Positions 2,796-52,246 of a stretch of DNA of 52,246 bases are shown here, piece by piece. Position 1 is the stretch's first letter. Every line of letters starts with the position of its first letter. The notes under the pieces are model-generated. The model saw only the letters and a list, made by a program, of their open reading frames with translations. It did no database searches and was not told the origin of the DNA. The DNA lies in the IMG/VR virus record IMGVR_UViG_3300030104_000800, positions 1 to 52,246 of that record. One strand, written 5' to 3'. This DNA comes from a virus. Both the position numbers and the translations under genes were made by a program.

Positions 2796-3019
2796 TGCAA
2801 TTAGAAACAGTAATTAATAAACTTATTAGATTTTTAAACGAAAGAACAGAAGACCTATCTATTACAGTAACTTCAGGAAGTGTTGACAACATGGAAAATT
2901 ACAAGTATATAATAGGACAAATCAATGCATTGGAATCAGTGCATCAGGAAATCTCTAACCTGCTAAACGATAAGGAGCACAATGAAGGAACAGTCATCGA
3001 TATTAACACCAAACAATGA
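2795..3019 (+). CDS. Small acidic helical protein upstream of Cpn10
   Basis: 74 residues, acidic, predicted helical (LETVINKLIRFLNERTEDL ... IIGQINALESVHQEISNLL). It breaks the run of basic proteins and overlaps the Cpn10-like gene by 38 bases. Comparable helical proteins precede head genes in related marine phages; role unknown, possibly head assembly. Confidence 0.6.
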   Translation: MQLETVINKLIRFLNERTEDLSITVTSGSVDNMENYKYIIGQINALESVHQEISNLLNDKEHNEGTVIDINTKQ

Positions 3020-3398
3020 TCTTATTGGTGTAAAAAAATCAGAGAAAAAAGAAGAAAAGCAAGAAGGAAAAATTCCACAACCAACAGGTTGGAGACTTTT
3101 AGTTTTACCTTTTAAAATGAAAGAAAAAACTAAAGGCGGATTAGTATTGGCAGAAACTACTTTAGAAAAGCAACAAGTTGCTTCTCAATGTGGTTTAGTT
3201 TTAGCTATGGGTCCACAATGTTATAAGGATAAGGAGAGGTATCCTGAAGGTCCATGGTGCGAGGTCAATCAATGGGTTATGTTTGCACGTTATGCAGGTA
3301 GCCGAATAAAAATAGATGGTGGGGAAATTCGTCTGCTAAACGACGATGAAGTGTTAGCAACAATTGATAGTCCAGAAGACATCTTGCATGAGTTTTAA
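2982..3398 (+). CDS. GroES/Cpn10-like co-chaperonin
   Basis: 138 residues. After a charged N-terminal tail (1-32), residues about 33-135 match the Cpn10 fold: P-x-GWRLLVLPF, then EKTKGGLVLAE (mobile-loop region), V...GLVLAMGP, WVMFARYAGSRIKIDGGEI and LLNDDEVLATI near the end. Phage Cpn10 proteins such as T4 gp31 replace host GroES so that GroEL can fold the capsid protein; no GroEL is seen here. The gene sits just before scaffold and capsid, which suits that role. The start at 2982 follows a GGAGCACA purine site. Confidence 0.78.
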   Translation: MKEQSSILTPNNDLIGVKKSEKKEEKQEGKIPQPTGWRLLVLPFKMKEKTKGGLVLAETTLEKQQVASQCGLVLAMGPQCYKDKERYPEGPWCEVNQWVMFARYAGSRIKIDGGEIRLLNDDEVLATIDSPEDILHEF

Positions 3399-16837: not shown

Positions 16838-17920
16838 ATGGCTAATACCACATCAACAAGTTTAAAGCTTACAGTTCAAGCAACAGGTGATAACTCTGGA
16901 ACATGGGGCCAAATTACTAACACTAATTTACTTGTTTTAGAACAAGCAATTGGTGGTTATGAAGCAATTGGAATTACAACAGGGGCAACTTTAACATTTT
17001 CTAATGGTGTTATATCAAACGGTAAAAATCAAGTTTTAAAATTAACAGGAACCATAGCAGCCAATAGAACTGTTACTATTCCAGATTCAATAGAAAAAAC
17101 ATACATTGTAGATAATGCAACAACTGGTGCATACACAGTAACTTTTAAAACAAGTTCAGGAACAGGGGTTACCTGGTCTGCTACAGATAAAAGCACTAAA
17201 ATAATTTATTCAGATGGAACTAATGTAGTTGATACAGCTTTTGTATCTAATGCTATTACAGAAGTTTCAGAGGATACTAGTCCACAATTAGGTGGAGATT
17301 TAGATACCAATTCATTTAATATTAAAATTGATGATGATCATGGCATATATGATGATGATAATAATGAACAAATAGTATTTCAAAAAACAGCATCAGCTGT
17401 TAATAATCTTGAAGTAACTAACCAAGCAACAGGTTCAGGTCCTTCTCTTAATGCAGTTGGTGGTGATACAAATGTTGATTTAAATATTTCTCCAAAAGGT
17501 ATTGGAAGAGTTGTTTTAGGTGCAGCTAAAATAGAACAAACTGCAGAAAAAGTTACAAATGCTGCAACAGCATTTACAGGTACAATTAACTTTGATGTTA
17601 TTACACAATCTATTTTTAATGCTACTTCTAATGCTTCTGCAAACTGGACATTAAATGTTAGAGGTGATGGTTCAAATAGTTTAAATAATATTATGGATAC
17701 AGGAGAATCATTAACTATTGTAACTCTTGTACCGCAAGGATCAACAGCATATTATAATTCAGCTTTTCAAATTGATGGATCAAGTGTTACTCCTAAATGG
17801 CTAGATGGAGCAACTCCATCAGCAGGAAACGCTTCTTCAACAGACGTATACAGTTACACAATAATTAAAACTGCAAATGCTACATTTACAGTTATTGCAG
17901 CACAAACAAAGTTCGCATAA
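16838..17920 (+). CDS. Tail fibre / appendage protein
   Basis: 360 residues. N-terminus STSLKLTVQATGDNSGTWGQ followed by TNTNLLVLEQAIGGYEAIGI is the common attachment module of marine-phage appendages (GTWG...N.N...E.A.GG). The middle has TVTIPDSIEKTYIVDNATTG and VWS-type beta repeats; about 140-230 resembles the LGGDLDTNSFNI / ISPKGIGRVVLGA fibre segment. No lyase motif. AAGGAA site and its own promoter candidate. Confidence 0.72.
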   Translation: MANTTSTSLKLTVQATGDNSGTWGQITNTNLLVLEQAIGGYEAIGITTGATLTFSNGVISNGKNQVLKLTGTIAANRTVTIPDSIEKTYIVDNATTGAYTVTFKTSSGTGVTWSATDKSTKIIYSDGTNVVDTAFVSNAITEVSEDTSPQLGGDLDTNSFNIKIDDDHGIYDDDNNEQIVFQKTASAVNNLEVTNQATGSGPSLNAVGGDTNVDLNISPKGIGRVVLGAAKIEQTAEKVTNAATAFTGTINFDVITQSIFNATSNASANWTLNVRGDGSNSLNNIMDTGESLTIVTLVPQGSTAYYNSAFQIDGSSVTPKWLDGATPSAGNASSTDVYSYTIIKTANATFTVIAAQTKFA

Positions 17921-17934
17921 TAGGAGAATTTTAG

Positions 17935-18918
17935 ATGCCTTTAATTGGAAGTAAAGCAGTCAAAATGCCGGGAGGCATTGGAGGCGGCAGCAATAAAAAA
18001 TTTACATCAGCTACAGGTGGAACAATTACAACTGTAGGCGATTACAAAATTCACACTTTTACATCACCAGGAACTTTTACAGTTACACAAGCAGGTAACG
18101 CACCAACAAATCCTGTAGGTGGTCCAGCAACAGTAGACTATTTAGTAGTAGCTGGTGGTGGAGGTGGAGCATTTAAAGGTGGTGGAGGTGGAGCAGGAGG
18201 TTTTAGAGAATCCGTTCCAAGCCCTGCTGCATGGACAGGAAGTCCTTTAGCTAATCCAGGTGGTGGTTTAACCGTAACTGCTCAAGGTTATCCAGTAACT
18301 GTTGGATCGGGAGGAGCAGGAGGCGTTCAACCTGGACCACAACCTCCAGGAGCTAACGGATCAGACTCAGTTTTTTCAACTATAACATCTACAGGTGGTG
18401 GTGGAGGTGGAGCTTTACTTAATAATAATGCAAATGGTAACCCAGGAGGTTCTGGTGGTGGTGCAAAAAAAGTAGCTAATCCTTCAGGAGCTAGTGCAGG
18501 TTCAGGAAATACTCCTCCTGTAAGTCCTCCTCAAGGAAATCCAGGTGGTCCAGTAGGTAGTGACCCAAGTGTAAATACACAATCAAGTGGAGGTGGAGCA
18601 GGAGCTTCAGGTGGATCAGGAGATAGTGCTGGTGGTGCTGGTGTAGGAACCGCATTTAATCCAAGTCCTTCTGTTGGAACACCGGGACCAGATGGTGCTT
18701 TAAGATATTTTGGTGGTGGAGGTGGTTCAGCAATAACATCTAGTCCATCAAGTTATGTTGGTCCAGCCGCAGTTGGAGGAGGTGGAGCCGCTAAATCAAA
18801 TGGAGGAAATCCTGGAACAGCTAACACTGGAGGAGGTGGAGGTGGAACTGCCGGTAATCCTGGAACTGCGGGAAGTGGTGGTTCTGGTATAGTTATGATA
18901 AGGTATAAGTATCAGTAA
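17935..18918 (+). CDS. Glycine-rich fibre-tip/adhesin-like protein
   Basis: 327 residues. After KIHTFTSPGTFTVTQ and VDYLVVAGGGGG, most of the protein is Gly-rich (runs of GGGG) with short aromatic or polar insertions, ending GGSGIVMIRYKYQ. The pattern matches the phage glycine-rich domain family, and poly-Gly stretches could form polyglycine-II bundles as in T-even-type adhesins (gp38 of S16). Position after fibre genes suggests a receptor-binding tip. GGAGAA site. Confidence 0.66.
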   Translation: MPLIGSKAVKMPGGIGGGSNKKFTSATGGTITTVGDYKIHTFTSPGTFTVTQAGNAPTNPVGGPATVDYLVVAGGGGGAFKGGGGGAGGFRESVPSPAAWTGSPLANPGGGLTVTAQGYPVTVGSGGAGGVQPGPQPPGANGSDSVFSTITSTGGGGGGALLNNNANGNPGGSGGGAKKVANPSGASAGSGNTPPVSPPQGNPGGPVGSDPSVNTQSSGGGAGASGGSGDSAGGAGVGTAFNPSPSVGTPGPDGALRYFGGGGGSAITSSPSSYVGPAAVGGGGAAKSNGGNPGTANTGGGGGGTAGNPGTAGSGGSGIVMIRYKYQ

Positions 18919-45271: not shown

Positions 45272-45394
45272 TTGAAAGCTCAAGGGCGTCCAAATCTTGC
45301 CAATGGCATTTCCCTGTACGTTAGCGATGACCGCAAGGTAGCAACCTGGAGTTTGGCCGGCTGTGAGTACGTGCACGGAAAGCAGCTGGTTTGA
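45272..45394 (+). CDS. Possible GC-rich 40-aa ORF lacking ATG
   Basis: TTG-initiated frame reading LKAQGRPNLANGISLYVSDD and RKVATWSLAGCEYVHGKQLV, protein-like, with clearly higher GC and different codons than its neighbours. No ribosome site precedes it and a stop lies just upstream in the same frame. It may be a leaderless or recoded gene, a fragment of a transferred gene, or non-coding. Confidence 0.33.
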   Translation: MKAQGRPNLANGISLYVSDDRKVATWSLAGCEYVHGKQLV

Positions 45395-48959: not shown

Positions 48960-49343
48960 ATGGGACCAGAGCGTAAATTGTACCAAAAAGTTAAGAAATC
49001 TTTTACCAATTTTTCCCTTAATAGACTTGAAAATACTAGCTTACATGGCACTCCCGATCTATTGGTCTGTAATAATTCTGGCCACTTTTTTACCTTAGAA
49101 CTCAAGATAACAAAGGGTAATAAATTAAGATTTAGTCCACACCAAATTGCCTTCCATGTGAGGCATCCACACAATACATTTATCTTAGCAGAGACCCTTG
49201 GTCCTTGCTCCTCTAAACTTTCTCAAATATCTTTGTACCCTGGTTCACGGATCTTGGAGCTTGATGCTTGCGGCTTGAAGCTTGAACCTTTATGCTTAGG
49301 GCTTGATGCTTGCAGCCTGATGCTTGATCAGCTTGGCGCTTGA
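48960..49343 (+). CDS. VRR-NUC nuclease with a repeat-derived C-terminal tail
   Basis: 127 residues. Core about 1-80: E4, G30-T-P-D33 (GTPDLLVCN), E47-x-K49 (FTLELKI), RFSPHQIAFHVRHP with Q62, and FILAE, the compact VRR-NUC fold related to Holliday-junction and nick-processing nucleases. From about residue 98 the frame runs into the GCTTGNN DNA array and the protein ends LDACGLKLEPLCLGLDACSL..., clearly repeat-derived. It may be functional without this tail. Confidence 0.76.
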   Translation: MGPERKLYQKVKKSFTNFSLNRLENTSLHGTPDLLVCNNSGHFFTLELKITKGNKLRFSPHQIAFHVRHPHNTFILAETLGPCSSKLSQISLYPGSRILELDACGLKLEPLCLGLDACSLMLDQLGA

Positions 49344-49379
49344 AGCTTGCTGCTTGCAGCCTGAAGCTTGATGCTTGTG
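49259..49379 (+). repeat. GCTTGNN heptanucleotide array, copy 1
   Basis: About 14 recognisable units of GCTTGNN (GCTTGAT, GCTTGCG, GCTTGAA ...) with one short interruption and a few GCCTG variants, all in the same orientation, inside and beyond the 3' end of the nuclease gene. Unit length 7 means all reading frames give a 7-residue periodic peptide. Confidence 0.8.
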
Positions 49380-49496
49380 GCCCGGACCAGGGCGCACGCT
49401 ATCAACGACTTCGCGAGTGTCGGGTTTGCTAATGGCCTGATCCGTTTTATCCCTAGGGATTCTGTAAAATTTTGGGTGTTTAAAAACATGTGTCAT
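49296..49496 (-). CDS. Possible small protein ending in heptad-repeat tail
   Basis: 66 codons starting two bases after the GP88 stop (TAA-TC-ATG): MTHVFKHPKFYRIPRDKTDQ, AISKPDTREVVDSVRPGPGH, then KHQASGCKQQASSAKLIKHQ from the repeat array. Tight coupling to GP88 favours translation; the repeat tail argues for caution. The 'PGP...K(R/Q)QASS' layout parallels the ORF at 50269-50460. Confidence 0.38.
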   Translation of the reverse strand: MTHVFKHPKFYRIPRDKTDQAISKPDTREVVDSVRPGPGHKHQASGCKQQASSAKLIKHQAASIKP

Positions 49497-50285: not shown

Positions 50286-50460
50286 TTTCTTTCTCCTTTA
50301 GTTTATAGGATACAATAACATTGTAATTTAATCTTGTCAAGCTTGCAGCTTGACGCTTGCAGCTTGAGGCTTGTCGCTTGTAGCTTGGTCCTTGATCCTC
50401 CAGCCAGCGCGCATGCTGCAGGAAGACTCGGGCCATTGCTGGCCCGGGACGTCTACTCAC
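50269..50460 (-). CDS. Possible repeat-tailed protein (RPGPAMARVFLQHARWLEDQGP type)
   Basis: 63 codons coupled to the gene at 50457-50645 by ATGA. MSRRPGPAMARVFLQHARWL then EDQGPSYKRQASSCKRQAAS is a recurrent reading in marine-phage contigs, and the DNA holds a CGGGCC...GGCCCG hairpin plus the GCTTGNN array. The C-terminal part runs through the promoter of the next operon. It could be a real conserved peptide or the shadow of a conserved DNA/RNA element. Confidence 0.36.
   Translation of the reverse strand: MSRRPGPAMARVFLQHARWLEDQGPSYKRQASSCKRQAASLTRLNYNVIVSYKLKEKENGKYN
50312..50340 (-). promoter_or_regulatory. Minus-strand promoter of the GP88 operon
   Basis: Minus strand TTGACA (50340-50335), 17-bp spacer, TATTGT (50317-50312). 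Predicted start near 50305, about 20 bases before the 50285 ATG and its AAGGAG. An alternative -10 TATAAA further on, preceded by TATCC, is possible. Confidence 0.58.
50341..50396 (+). repeat. GCTTGNN array, copy 2, abutting a minus promoter -35
   Basis: Eight perfectly phased units (GCTTGCA, GCTTGAC, GCTTGCA, GCTTGAG, GCTTGTC, GCTTGTA, GCTTGGT, CCTTGAT). The array begins exactly where the minus-strand TTGACA (50340-50335) ends, so seen from that promoter it lies just upstream like an activator array. Confidence 0.82.
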
Positions 50461-50645
50461 TTCTTACTCCTAGCTTCAAGGTTAAAGTCATACCAGCCGC
50501 TGCTGTCTAGGAACTCTACGGCCCTGTCCAGTGCATTCCTAAAATGCTTCGTCCGGTATTCAGCTGGACAGTCTTCATCAGCGTGACATGCTAGCCACGC
50601 CAGCATGTCACAAATTTCATTTTCGCGTTTGGAGAACTTAGTCAT
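50457..50645 (-). CDS. Small conserved protein
   Basis: 62 residues: MTKFSKRENEICDMLAWLAC, HADEDCPAEYRTKHFRNALD, RAVEFLDSSGWYDFNLEARS. Acidic N-terminus with three Cys, helical. Start overlaps the upstream gene by 8 bases. A recurring minus-strand gene beside the GCTTGNN arrays in this kind of phage; function unknown. Confidence 0.6.
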   Translation of the reverse strand: MTKFSKRENEICDMLAWLACHADEDCPAEYRTKHFRNALDRAVEFLDSSGWYDFNLEARSKK

Positions 50646-50787
50646 CCTTCCTGTCCTCCATATATTTTCTAGATCTCTCCTGATCTTCCTTCACCATCCT
50701 GATGACCTCTTCCAAGGCGTCCGCTATTCTTCTGAGCTGTACAACTTCACCTCTTATGTTTGGTTCTTTTTCACTATTTATACTCAT
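50638..50787 (-). CDS. Small helical protein
   Basis: 49 codons from the minus ATG at 50787: MSINSEKEPNIRGEVVQLRR, IADALEEVIRMVKEDQERSR and KYMEDRKDD. A short amphipathic coiled coil; AAGGAA site (minus) and a promoter candidate at 50811-50839. First gene of the leftward operon. Function unknown. Confidence 0.57.
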   Translation of the reverse strand: MSINSEKEPNIRGEVVQLRRIADALEEVIRMVKEDQERSRKYMEDRKDD

Positions 50788-50810
50788 ATGTTTTATTCCT
50801 TTCTAAATAC

Positions 50811-50839
50811 ATCCTACATTATCCCTGAACCATTGTCAA
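50811..50839 (-). promoter_or_regulatory. Minus-strand promoter, GCTTGNN array just upstream
   Basis: Minus strand TTGACA (50839-50834), 17-bp spacer, TAGGAT (50816-50811). The start at about 50804 lies 17 bases before the 50787 ATG. As at 50340, the -35 box sits two bases from a GCTTGNN array. Confidence 0.5.
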
Positions 50840-50841
50840 GC

Positions 50842-50866
50842 GCTTGCTGCTTGAGGCTTGAAGCTC
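50842..50866 (+). repeat. GCTTGNN array, copy 3 (three units)
   Basis: GCTTGCT, GCTTGAG, GCTTGAA, then GCTC. Same orientation as the other arrays, two bases upstream (minus sense) of the TTGACA at 50839-50834. Confidence 0.7.
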
Positions 50867-50879
50867 AACTCTCTCCTTC

Positions 50880-51293
50880 TTTAGAATGATTTTTAGAATC
50901 ATTCTAAAGTGGCTCTCGGTAGGTCTCACCCGAGATTATTCCTAACGCGTGTCGCGCATAGCATCCAAGACCAATGGGCCACAAATTATTAGCAGGACCC
51001 TGAGTTGAGGCCGGCGTGCTTTATTTTAACAGCCCGGGCAACAGGCCTAACAGGTTATCACCTGTCAGGGTCCAGCAAATAATGATCAGTCACTATGCTA
51101 CGCGGGGGGTTGACGGCCACAGTTTCAGTCAACATTCGGGAGCTCCTTTACCGCCCACCGTGTTATAGTGTTTATCTCCACAGTCAATAATGACTGATCT
51201 CGGATCTAACACAGTTGAAAATATTAGATCCGAGATCAGTAGCGTTGCTGTTATCCTACAGACCAACGCTAATAATCTCTACTTGTTTAGAGT
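50880..51293 (-). ncRNA. Candidate large structured phage RNA
   Basis: A 500-base stretch without a gene. It holds, on the minus sense, many perfect or near-perfect stems: CTCTA/TAGAG near 51275-51292, AGCGTTG/CAACGCT (51241-51247/51264-51270) with an inner CTGT/ACAG, a 17-bp stem (51193-51209/51224-51240), a long-range 9-bp pair (51084-51092/51191-51199) enclosing smaller nested stems, a 19-bp stem with two mismatches (50985-51003/51065-51083), CTCGG/CCGAG (50914-50934) and a 12-bp terminal hairpin (50880-50891/50897-50908). It follows a near-consensus minus promoter, is GC-richer than the genome and has no ORF. Size suggests a 400-nt ornate RNA; family unknown. Confidence 0.62.
51193..51240. 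promoter_or_regulatory. 17-bp perfect inverted repeat in the RNA region
   Basis: ACTGATCTCGGATCTAA (51193-51209) and TTAGATCCGAGATCAGT (51224-51240) with a 14-nt loop. No T run follows on either side. Its left arm overlaps a 9-base segment that can instead pair with 51084-51092, so two exclusive folds are possible. Confidence 0.8.
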
Positions 51294-51299
51294 AATTAA

Positions 51300-51328
51300 T
51301 ATATAATCCTTGACAATCCTATTGTCAA
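51300..51328 (-). promoter_or_regulatory. Near-consensus minus promoter of the structured RNA
   Basis: Minus strand TTGACA (51328-51323), 17-bp spacer, TATATA (51305-51300). Predicted start about 51293. It overlaps a plus-strand TTGACA (51310-51315) through the perfect repeat TTGACAAT-CCT-ATTGTCAA (51310-51328). Confidence 0.7.
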
Positions 51329-51338
51329 GTAGTAAAAC
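51310..51338 (+). promoter_or_regulatory. Plus promoter (weak -10), third interleaved node
   Basis: TTGACA (51310-51315), 17-bp spacer, TAAAAC (51333-51338). It would start transcription about 30 bases before the ATG at 51374. The inverted repeat of two -35 boxes suggests one regulator or RNA polymerase competition at this site. Confidence 0.45.
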
Positions 51339-51373
51339 AAAAAAATAAAAATTAATTAACAGAAAGGTCTAAA

Positions 51374-52246
51374 ATGACAAAAATAAGAATGAATACAGAG
51401 TTGCGAAACAAACTCTTTAATAAAATAAAAAATGTCTTTGAGAATGAAGACACTCAAGAACGAGAGGCATATCTTCAAGCAAGGGAAAATGTTGATAGAG
51501 AATATGAACACGCTCATAGACTTGCAGTAGATGTAGTTGAGAGATCATATCCACCAGAAGATGTTGCAACTCTTAGAACTTTTAAAAAGAAGTATGGCAA
51601 CCCTTGTGATGTTGTAGCAAAAGATAAATGTTTTTACTTTGCACACAACGAAGACAAAGATGAAGATGGCGACGTTACAGAAACAAAATCTCATTTTGAT
51701 TTTGGTTTGTTTGGTAATCTAAATGGTAATGAGTATGGTAGTGATGAGGGCAAAAAGTTTGCGTTTGCATATTATAGAGAAGATTTAAAAGCTATGGATT
51801 GCAACCCAGATATCTACGCACAACAAAAAGAAAACAAAGACAACCCACATAAAACAAAACACGTTGATGAGTGTACTAAAGCATTGGGTCATACTAGTAG
51901 TTATAATGGTAATGACAATACAGGCATGACTAAAACTTTTGATGACCAATATTATCTTGATGTTATCGGAACATCTTATTGCAGATCAAGAGCAATAGCT
52001 TGTACCAAAGATGAGTATTCAATGTTTGAAAGGTGGAGAATTGCAAAAGGTAATTTAGTTACTACACACCAAACATGGATTGATAGTATTGTAAAACAAT
52101 GCGATCAGTTAAAAATTGGATTAAAAGCATACAGATATCTTTCAGAGGGTATTGAACTTGCAACAGAACTTGGAATACAAGTTGATGAGGCAGAGTTAAT
52201 TAGAACTAACTCAACAGGTTTGACTATCTACAATCCAAGCAACTTG
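51374..52246 (+). CDS. Conserved marine-phage protein, partial (3' end outside window)
   Basis: 291 codons open to the window edge; AGAAAGGT site before the ATG. MTKIRMNTELRNKLFNKIKN, VVERSYPPEDVATLRTFKKK, GNPCDVVAKDKCFYFAHNED, HFDFGLFGNLNGNEYGSDEG, AYYREDLKAMDCNPDIYAQQ, KTKHVDECTKALGHTSSYNG, YYLDVIGTSYCRSRAIACTK, FERWRIAKGNLVTTHQTWID and AYRYLSEGIELATELGIQVD then RTNSTGLTIYNPSNL. I recognise it as a well-conserved protein of uncultured marine phages with no known domain; acidic, Cys-containing, possibly early host-takeover. Confidence 0.68.
   Translation, partial: MTKIRMNTELRNKLFNKIKNVFENEDTQEREAYLQARENVDREYEHAHRLAVDVVERSYPPEDVATLRTFKKKYGNPCDVVAKDKCFYFAHNEDKDEDGDVTETKSHFDFGLFGNLNGNEYGSDEGKKFAFAYYREDLKAMDCNPDIYAQQKENKDNPHKTKHVDECTKALGHTSSYNGNDNTGMTKTFDDQYYLDVIGTSYCRSRAIACTKDEYSMFERWRIAKGNLVTTHQTWIDSIVKQCDQLKIGLKAYRYLSEGIELATELGIQVDEAELIRTNSTGLTIYNPSNL

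Follow-up and report, generated by a model that had tools for sequence, protein, structure and literature searches.

The intergenic region at positions 50880 to 51293 of the window (the whole stretch of DNA analyzed, 52,246 nucleotides, or 52 of the 62 kb of a viral record) is an array of individually structured modules and not one RNA fold; among relatives, both the set of modules and their order vary. Structure, covariation, strand, a fixed locus, mosaicism, and the retained self-complementarity of varying loops were all observed in the sequences that we compared. We consider it likely that the array encodes a modular noncoding RNA, made from the minus strand behind a conserved promoter, that homo-oligomerizes through its loops, and that phages of the HTVC023P group exchange the modules among themselves. 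Within this explanation, transcription, dimerization, and a role in assembly are inferred.

Phage and genomic context of the array

Judged from its sequence, the window phage is an HTVC023P-type pelagiphage related to the isolate HTVC027P, the nearest described genome that we found. HTVC027P is an isolate of the lytic HTVC023P type and infects SAR11 strain HTCC1062 (PMC12753301). The hosts of such viruses are the most common bacteria in the ocean. The array in the window is flanked on one side by a minus-strand operon with a GP88-family protein and on the other by a plus-strand gene at 51374, which corresponds to HTVC027P gp35. HTVC027P also has an array, in the region 17671 to 18218 of MN698241.1, placed in a divergent intergenic position between the genes for the small and large terminase subunits, with gp33 and gp34 directly downstream; gp33 and gp34 form an expression class of their own, early to middle, with a peak at 6 to 9 h (PMC12753301).

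Only short ORFs of chance size overlap the 50880-to-51293 region. Just downstream of the array and of a second promoter, a 49-amino-acid ORF at 50638 to 50787 (minus strand) resembles HTVC027P gp34. Short tandem repeats of the form GCTTGnn are found at 49253 to 49400 and at 50340 to 50390 of the window, and in most relatives the arrays are bounded on the left by repeats of a similar kind.

Read from the promoter, the array of the window is ordered 5' hairpin, D, B, A, C, E. The features of the array, its two promoters, and one solitary module elsewhere in the window are as follows.

51300 to 51328, minus strand: putative promoter of the array RNA, TTGACA-N17-TATATA, overlapping the palindrome TTGACAATCCTATTGTCAA (sequence and recurrence)
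51241 to 51270, minus strand: 5' hairpin, AGCGTTG...CAACGCT (minus-strand fold; relatives have different but equivalent hairpins here)
51193 to 51240, minus strand: module D hairpin, outer arm ACTGATC/GATCAGT, one arm common with module B (folds and recurrence of D-type modules)
51083 to 51199, minus strand: module B, consisting of P0, P1, P2, and an H-type pseudoknot P3/P4 (covariation, 33 copies)
51139 to 51146, minus strand: GGAGCUCC, an octamer in the loop of module B and a proposed site of homotypic kissing (covariation across the palindrome)
50985 to 51083, minus strand: module A (covariation, 28 copies)
51032 to 51039, minus strand: GCCCGGGC, an octamer in the loop of module A and a proposed site of homotypic kissing (covariation across the palindrome)
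50909 to 50982, minus strand: module C (covariation, 25 copies)
50880 to 50908, minus strand: module E, a palindromic, AU-rich hairpin of 12 bp that closes the array on its 3' side (sequence and folds)
50811 to 50839, minus strand: predicted promoter of the gp34/GP88 operon, TTGACA-N17-TAGGAT, downstream of the array (promoter scan, 10/12)
45276 to 45391, plus strand: solitary module F (RF02976, Flavobacterium-1), containing CGUGCACG (99.6 bits against a cut-off of 58.9)

Structure and covariation of the modules

A preliminary description of this DNA, made from its letters alone, had proposed a single structured phage RNA of about 400 nt with a dense set of helices on the minus strand. All of the helices that it listed are in the sequence where it had placed them: the pairing of 50985-51003 with 51065-51083 is the outer stem of module A, the helices at 51084 to 51199 are P0, P1, P2, and P4 of module B, and the remaining ones are the D hairpin, the 5' hairpin, and the E palindrome. 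The minus strand of 50880 to 51299 (420 nt) folded to -151.5 kcal/mol, compared with -110.9 (standard deviation, 5.5) for dinucleotide shuffles (z, -7.4), and none of the 100 shuffles was equally good. The plus strand of the same region folded to -146 kcal/mol (z, -7.5). Both strands thus fold about equally well, and energy alone cannot choose between them. A structured RNA was correctly suspected, but not its form as one large fold, which is ruled out by the finding of the modules in differing orders and singly. The pseudoknot helix P3 of module B, the modular and mosaic make-up, and the self-complementary loops had been missed.

The absence of covariation among homologues, or a folding energy not below that of shuffles, would have refuted the original proposal; the energy passed this check, and covariation was strong in modules A, B, and C relative to shuffles. 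For module B, 96.7% of cells across the 33 copies were paired and 13 pairs changed on both sides, with a covariation of 0.373 (shuffles, 0.110; no higher than 0.135 when slid). The pseudoknot of module B covaries, and diverse B subfamilies still fit the same pseudoknot: their mean score was 31.6, compared with 16.3 when the interiors were shuffled, and none of the means of 40 shuffled sets exceeded 19.6. Module A is composed of a long outer stem with a U.U mismatch, a CAGGU-GAUA-ACCUG hairpin, and a UUAGGCC/GGCCUcAA stem that encloses a large loop. Among its 28 copies, 96.8% of cells were paired, 24 pairs changed on both sides (4 octamer pairs included), and covariation was 0.491 versus 0.162 in shuffles. 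Module C has an outer stem (GUGGC/GCCAC), a hairpin, and an invariant loop pseudoknot (GGUCU/AGACC); 97.8% of cells were paired in 25 copies, 8 pairs changed on both sides, and covariation was 0.233 versus 0.111. It must be kept in mind that the module copies are related and recombining, so that the pair counts overstate the number of independent events.

The GATCAGT arm (51192 to 51199) has three mutually exclusive pairings, in the D stem, with the other end of B P0, and in a hairpin within AGTCATTAATGACT, so alternative folds are available to it. A U.U mismatch (sense strand) within CCUGG/CCUGG is kept in the outer arms of A and D (e.g., 50985-51003/51065-51083) while the surrounding arms change. 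On the plus strand, the GTT(G)AGGCC/GGCCTAAC boxes of module A are suggestive of an integron attC site, but their order is inverse for R boxes, and we rejected this identification.

Mosaicism of the array at a single locus

Homologous loci were gathered by means of the neighboring protein and the DNA patterns of three modules. The bases used for this retrieval are conserved by construction; they fall in parts of B P0 and P1, in the GGCC stem of module A, and in the pseudoknot loop of module C. The retrieval patterns did not include B P2, P3, and P4, the octamers, or the greater part of module A's outer stem and hairpin. In total, 173 of 178 distinct intergenic regions contained at least one module, at the same site between the GP88 operon and the gp35-like gene. 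D-type modules were found in 145 of the 178 loci, B in 125, E-type in 71, A in 59, and C and F in 30 each; in the first locus set, copies of module E itself were present in about 20 loci. There were no opposite-strand matches for A, B, C, or F in the 178 loci, and virtually all module copies map to this single locus. Phage HTVC033P has a distant homologue of the gp35-like right-hand gene (32% identity), and no module A, B, C, or F was recognized there.

Counted from the promoter, D-B was the commonest order, and different subsets of A, F, C, and E came after it. Both order and number vary: for instance, there are two A copies in L007 and two B copies in L037, and B precedes A in L013 and L021. 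Moreover, module A is ∼99% identical across many loci that are otherwise only 65 to 85% alike.

Strand and promoter of the array RNA

The pairing columns of module B, read on the minus strand, contained 30 G.U and 3 A.C appositions. An RNA from the plus strand would invert this imbalance, so the counts indicate the minus strand. The B pseudoknot was fitted better by minus-strand wobble rules in 43 copies and by plus-strand rules in 14; eight B 8-mers need G.U and one needs A.C; and two pair columns of module C are mostly held as G.U or U.G. A conserved G.T apposition at the base of B P2 would favor the plus strand, but it is little informative because it never varies. Solitary copies of module C, including those of phages Aegir and Kolga, are sense to the adjoining genes, and some solitary C copies lie just upstream of start codons. 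The Aegir and Kolga copies (L085 and L086, ∼3001 to 3100) have a different interior and are located two genes from a phage ribosomal protein S21 gene.

The minus-strand promoter named in the preliminary description, TTGACA-N17-TATATA, is present at 51328 to 51300, with a -10 element that is a weak match and was not listed by a simple scan. This arrangement recurs in 122 of 178 distinct homologous right flanks, compared with 6.4 expected from shuffled flanks. A plus-strand promoter-like arrangement was found in 161 of the same flanks (versus 52.6), as expected from the divergent gene. The palindrome TTGACAATCCTATTGTCAA (51309 to 51329) belongs also to the divergent promoter region of the 51374 gene; it varies yet stays palindromic in relatives, and it may be an operator.

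The wobbles, the lone copies, and the promoter support the assignment of the array RNA to the minus strand, as far as sequence comparison can establish it. With the covariation, they also uphold the earlier proposal of a structured minus-strand phage RNA behind a conserved promoter. Though both strands fold equally well, a plus-strand RNA is ruled out by the wobble asymmetry and the orientation of the modules. No clear terminator was found on the 3' side of the array, so the RNA may be the leader of a longer mRNA.

Module F and the Rfam family RF02976

A scan of the whole window against all Rfam 15 families returned RF02976 at 45276 to 45391 only. The stop codon of a small plus-strand gene lies no more than ten bases before this solitary module F, which is sense to the gene. 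In L037, L023, L166, and L031, the RF02976 match is instead an array module on the minus strand. RF02976 is module type F of the arrays; unlike the whole array, it is one module only, and it is absent from the array of the window, where its covariance model was not met at the curated cut-off in 50880 to 51299. The preliminary description did not recognize the RNA; the array itself is without an Rfam match, but one module type of such arrays had already been cataloged.

The scaffold L286 (KB911123.1), from a Flavobacterium single-cell genome, carries GP88, a gp35-like gene, and a full array and looks like a fragment of this pelagiphage type. We infer that the name Flavobacterium-1 probably derives from this scaffold. 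For an orphan Rfam family, the arrays supply a genomic context, as one module of what would be a larger RNA.

Self-complementary loops

The octamer in the loop of module A was self-complementary in 28 of 28 aligned copies, and all 4 of its pairs changed on both sides (covariation, 0.673; shuffles, 0.279; no higher than 0.196 when slid). All 17 distinct A loop segments contained an 8-nt self-complement, compared with 4.4 expected. The forms found among the copies include GCCCGGGC, GUCCGGAC, GCUCGAGC, ACCGCGGU, and GCCUAGGC; a second subtype has GAUGCAUC, GGUCGACC, and GUUGCAAC. Other octamers, among them GCCUGGGC and GUCCGGGC, need G.U pairs to be self-complementary. The octamer of module B sits in the joining loop of the pseudoknot and takes the forms GGAGCUCC, GGGAUCCC, GGGUACCC, AGAUAUCU, GAGAUCUC, and others. 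Across 26 distinct rows, it was 94.2% self-paired, with a covariation of 0.742 versus 0.289. The two B copies in the array of L037 carry different palindromes. Some B subfamilies have an ordinary hairpin in place of the palindrome, and no comparable variable palindrome was found in module C.

Modules F and D have self-complementary loops of 6 to 8 nt as well as A and B, on weaker evidence. An 8-nt palindrome was present in 44 of 104 D-type interiors of relatives, compared with 12.1 in shuffles (highest shuffle, 22), and close to its apical loop, module F carries UGAUCA, UGGCCA, or GUGCAC. The GUGCAC of the F copy in the window is also known as a palindrome of retroviral dimer initiation sites.

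Because the innermost two bases of an octamer are adjacent, they are unable to pair within one chain. Covariation of adjacent self-complementary loop bases is a criterion for homo-oligomeric RNAs, and the A and B octamers meet it; in OLE L9.3 and GOLLD L21a, such covariation supports the symmetric intermolecular kissing loops seen by cryo-EM (PMC12286853). In simple duplex energies, self-pairing of the loops was favored over cross-pairing between types. The octamer pattern was noticed before it was tested; given the number of different forms, chance is an unlikely explanation of the palindromes.

Comparison with known RNAs

The retroviral dimer initiation site, a loop with a palindromic hexamer, drives homodimerization. 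It belongs to an unrelated RNA and is a single site, whereas the array has several different palindromes. The packaging RNA of phage phi29 oligomerizes by loop-loop pairing, but its loops are hetero-complementary and it is one compact RNA; further, the phage type that carries the array has annotated small and large terminase subunits.

GOLLD and ROOL, large ornate phage RNAs that form homo-oligomeric cages, are like the array in being phage encoded and several hundred nucleotides long, with an elaborate structure and an unknown function. GOLLD also has symmetric kissing loops backed by adjacent-base covariation (PMC12286853), as predicted for the array. The array differs from both in its exchangeable modules of changing order, in palindromes that reach 8 nt and are far more variable, and in its structures. 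GOLLD is phage encoded and often near tRNA genes; the array is phage encoded, but a tRNA search of the window found none. The OLE dimer has a palindromic kissing loop, L9.3, in which GGCC switches to GAUC or AGCU (PMC12286853). OLE has this type of loop in common with the array but is bacterial rather than phage encoded and differs in structure. At curated cut-offs, the covariance models of GOLLD, ROOL, and OLE had no match in the whole-window Rfam 15 scan, and a permissive Rfam scan of 50700 to 51400 gave chance-level matches only. We do not file the array under GOLLD, ROOL, or OLE, which it resembles, by analogy, in its predicted behavior. In the open literature, to which our search was limited, we found no description of structured RNAs of pelagiphages and none of module exchange with wide variation of self-complementary loops.

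Alternative explanations and possible roles

The array could act chiefly in cis, as a 5' leader of the gp34/GP88 mRNA, in which the alternative pairings of the GATCAGT arm switch downstream transcription or translation and the palindromes are merely local structure. We regard this as possible but doubtful. The array promoter and the operon are co-directional, gp33 and gp34 have a distinctive expression class in HTVC027P (PMC12753301), and the missing terminator on the array's 3' side and the solitary C copies just upstream of start codons also speak for a leader. However, a separate promoter, downstream of the array, serves the operon, and local structure leaves the variation of the palindromes unexplained, since adjacent bases cannot pair within one chain. 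It is unlikely, in our assessment, that the palindromic modules act as DNA, in the form of cruciforms or of protein-binding or recombination sites at a replication or packaging locus. The equal folding of both strands, the divergent site between the terminase genes of HTVC027P, and shared terminal arms that could recombine would all be consistent with such a role, but the wobble asymmetry of 30 to 3 and the G.U-dependent palindromes favor RNA, and the single orientation, the covarying pseudoknot of B, and the lone copies sense to genes also count against it.

Phages are known to make RNA decoys for type III toxin-antitoxin systems, and modules whose interiors vary rapidly inside a conserved frame might likewise be decoys against a host defense that recognizes structured RNA, with an arms race as the source of loop diversity. 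An arms race leaves unexplained why the varying loops retain their self-complementarity, our analysis offers no host target, and we find this quite unlikely. The near-identical A copies in otherwise diverged loci, together with the presence or absence and the altered order of modules, would suit miniature mobile elements that have no function in the phage. To this we give very little credence: nearly all copies are at one locus and in one orientation, their interiors are structurally constrained, and some modules are kept in 173 of the 178 loci.

A homo-oligomerizing, modular RNA thus remains our preferred explanation. A minus-strand RNA would be made from the promoter at 51328 to 51300 and would fold module by module, with the modules independent of each other. 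The exposed self-complementary loops would pair between copies, giving homodimers or larger assemblies, and with loop sequences that are type specific, each RNA would prefer its own kind. Such an RNA may be a free-standing scaffold like the ornate phage RNAs GOLLD and ROOL, or it may be a copy-number-sensitive leader of the downstream gp34/GP88 operon that senses the concentration of its own kind.

Only tentatively, we suggest that the arrays could represent a new class of phage RNA in which the palindromic loops are lineage-specific identity tags, so that RNAs of the same genome type assemble and those of relatives are excluded. If this were true, the tags might serve copy-number sensing, self/non-self discrimination in co-infection, or an RNA scaffold. 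To our knowledge, natural RNA homo-oligomers have rarely been documented, and what they do in phages is still an open question. At one locus of abundant marine phages, there are well over 100 natural variants in which domains have been shuffled and loops redrawn yet kept self-complementary. If dimerization is confirmed, HTVC027P growing on HTCC1062, for which public stranded transcriptome sequencing (RNA-seq) data exist under BioProject PRJNA1253180, would be a ready system for studying the purpose of phage RNA assemblies.
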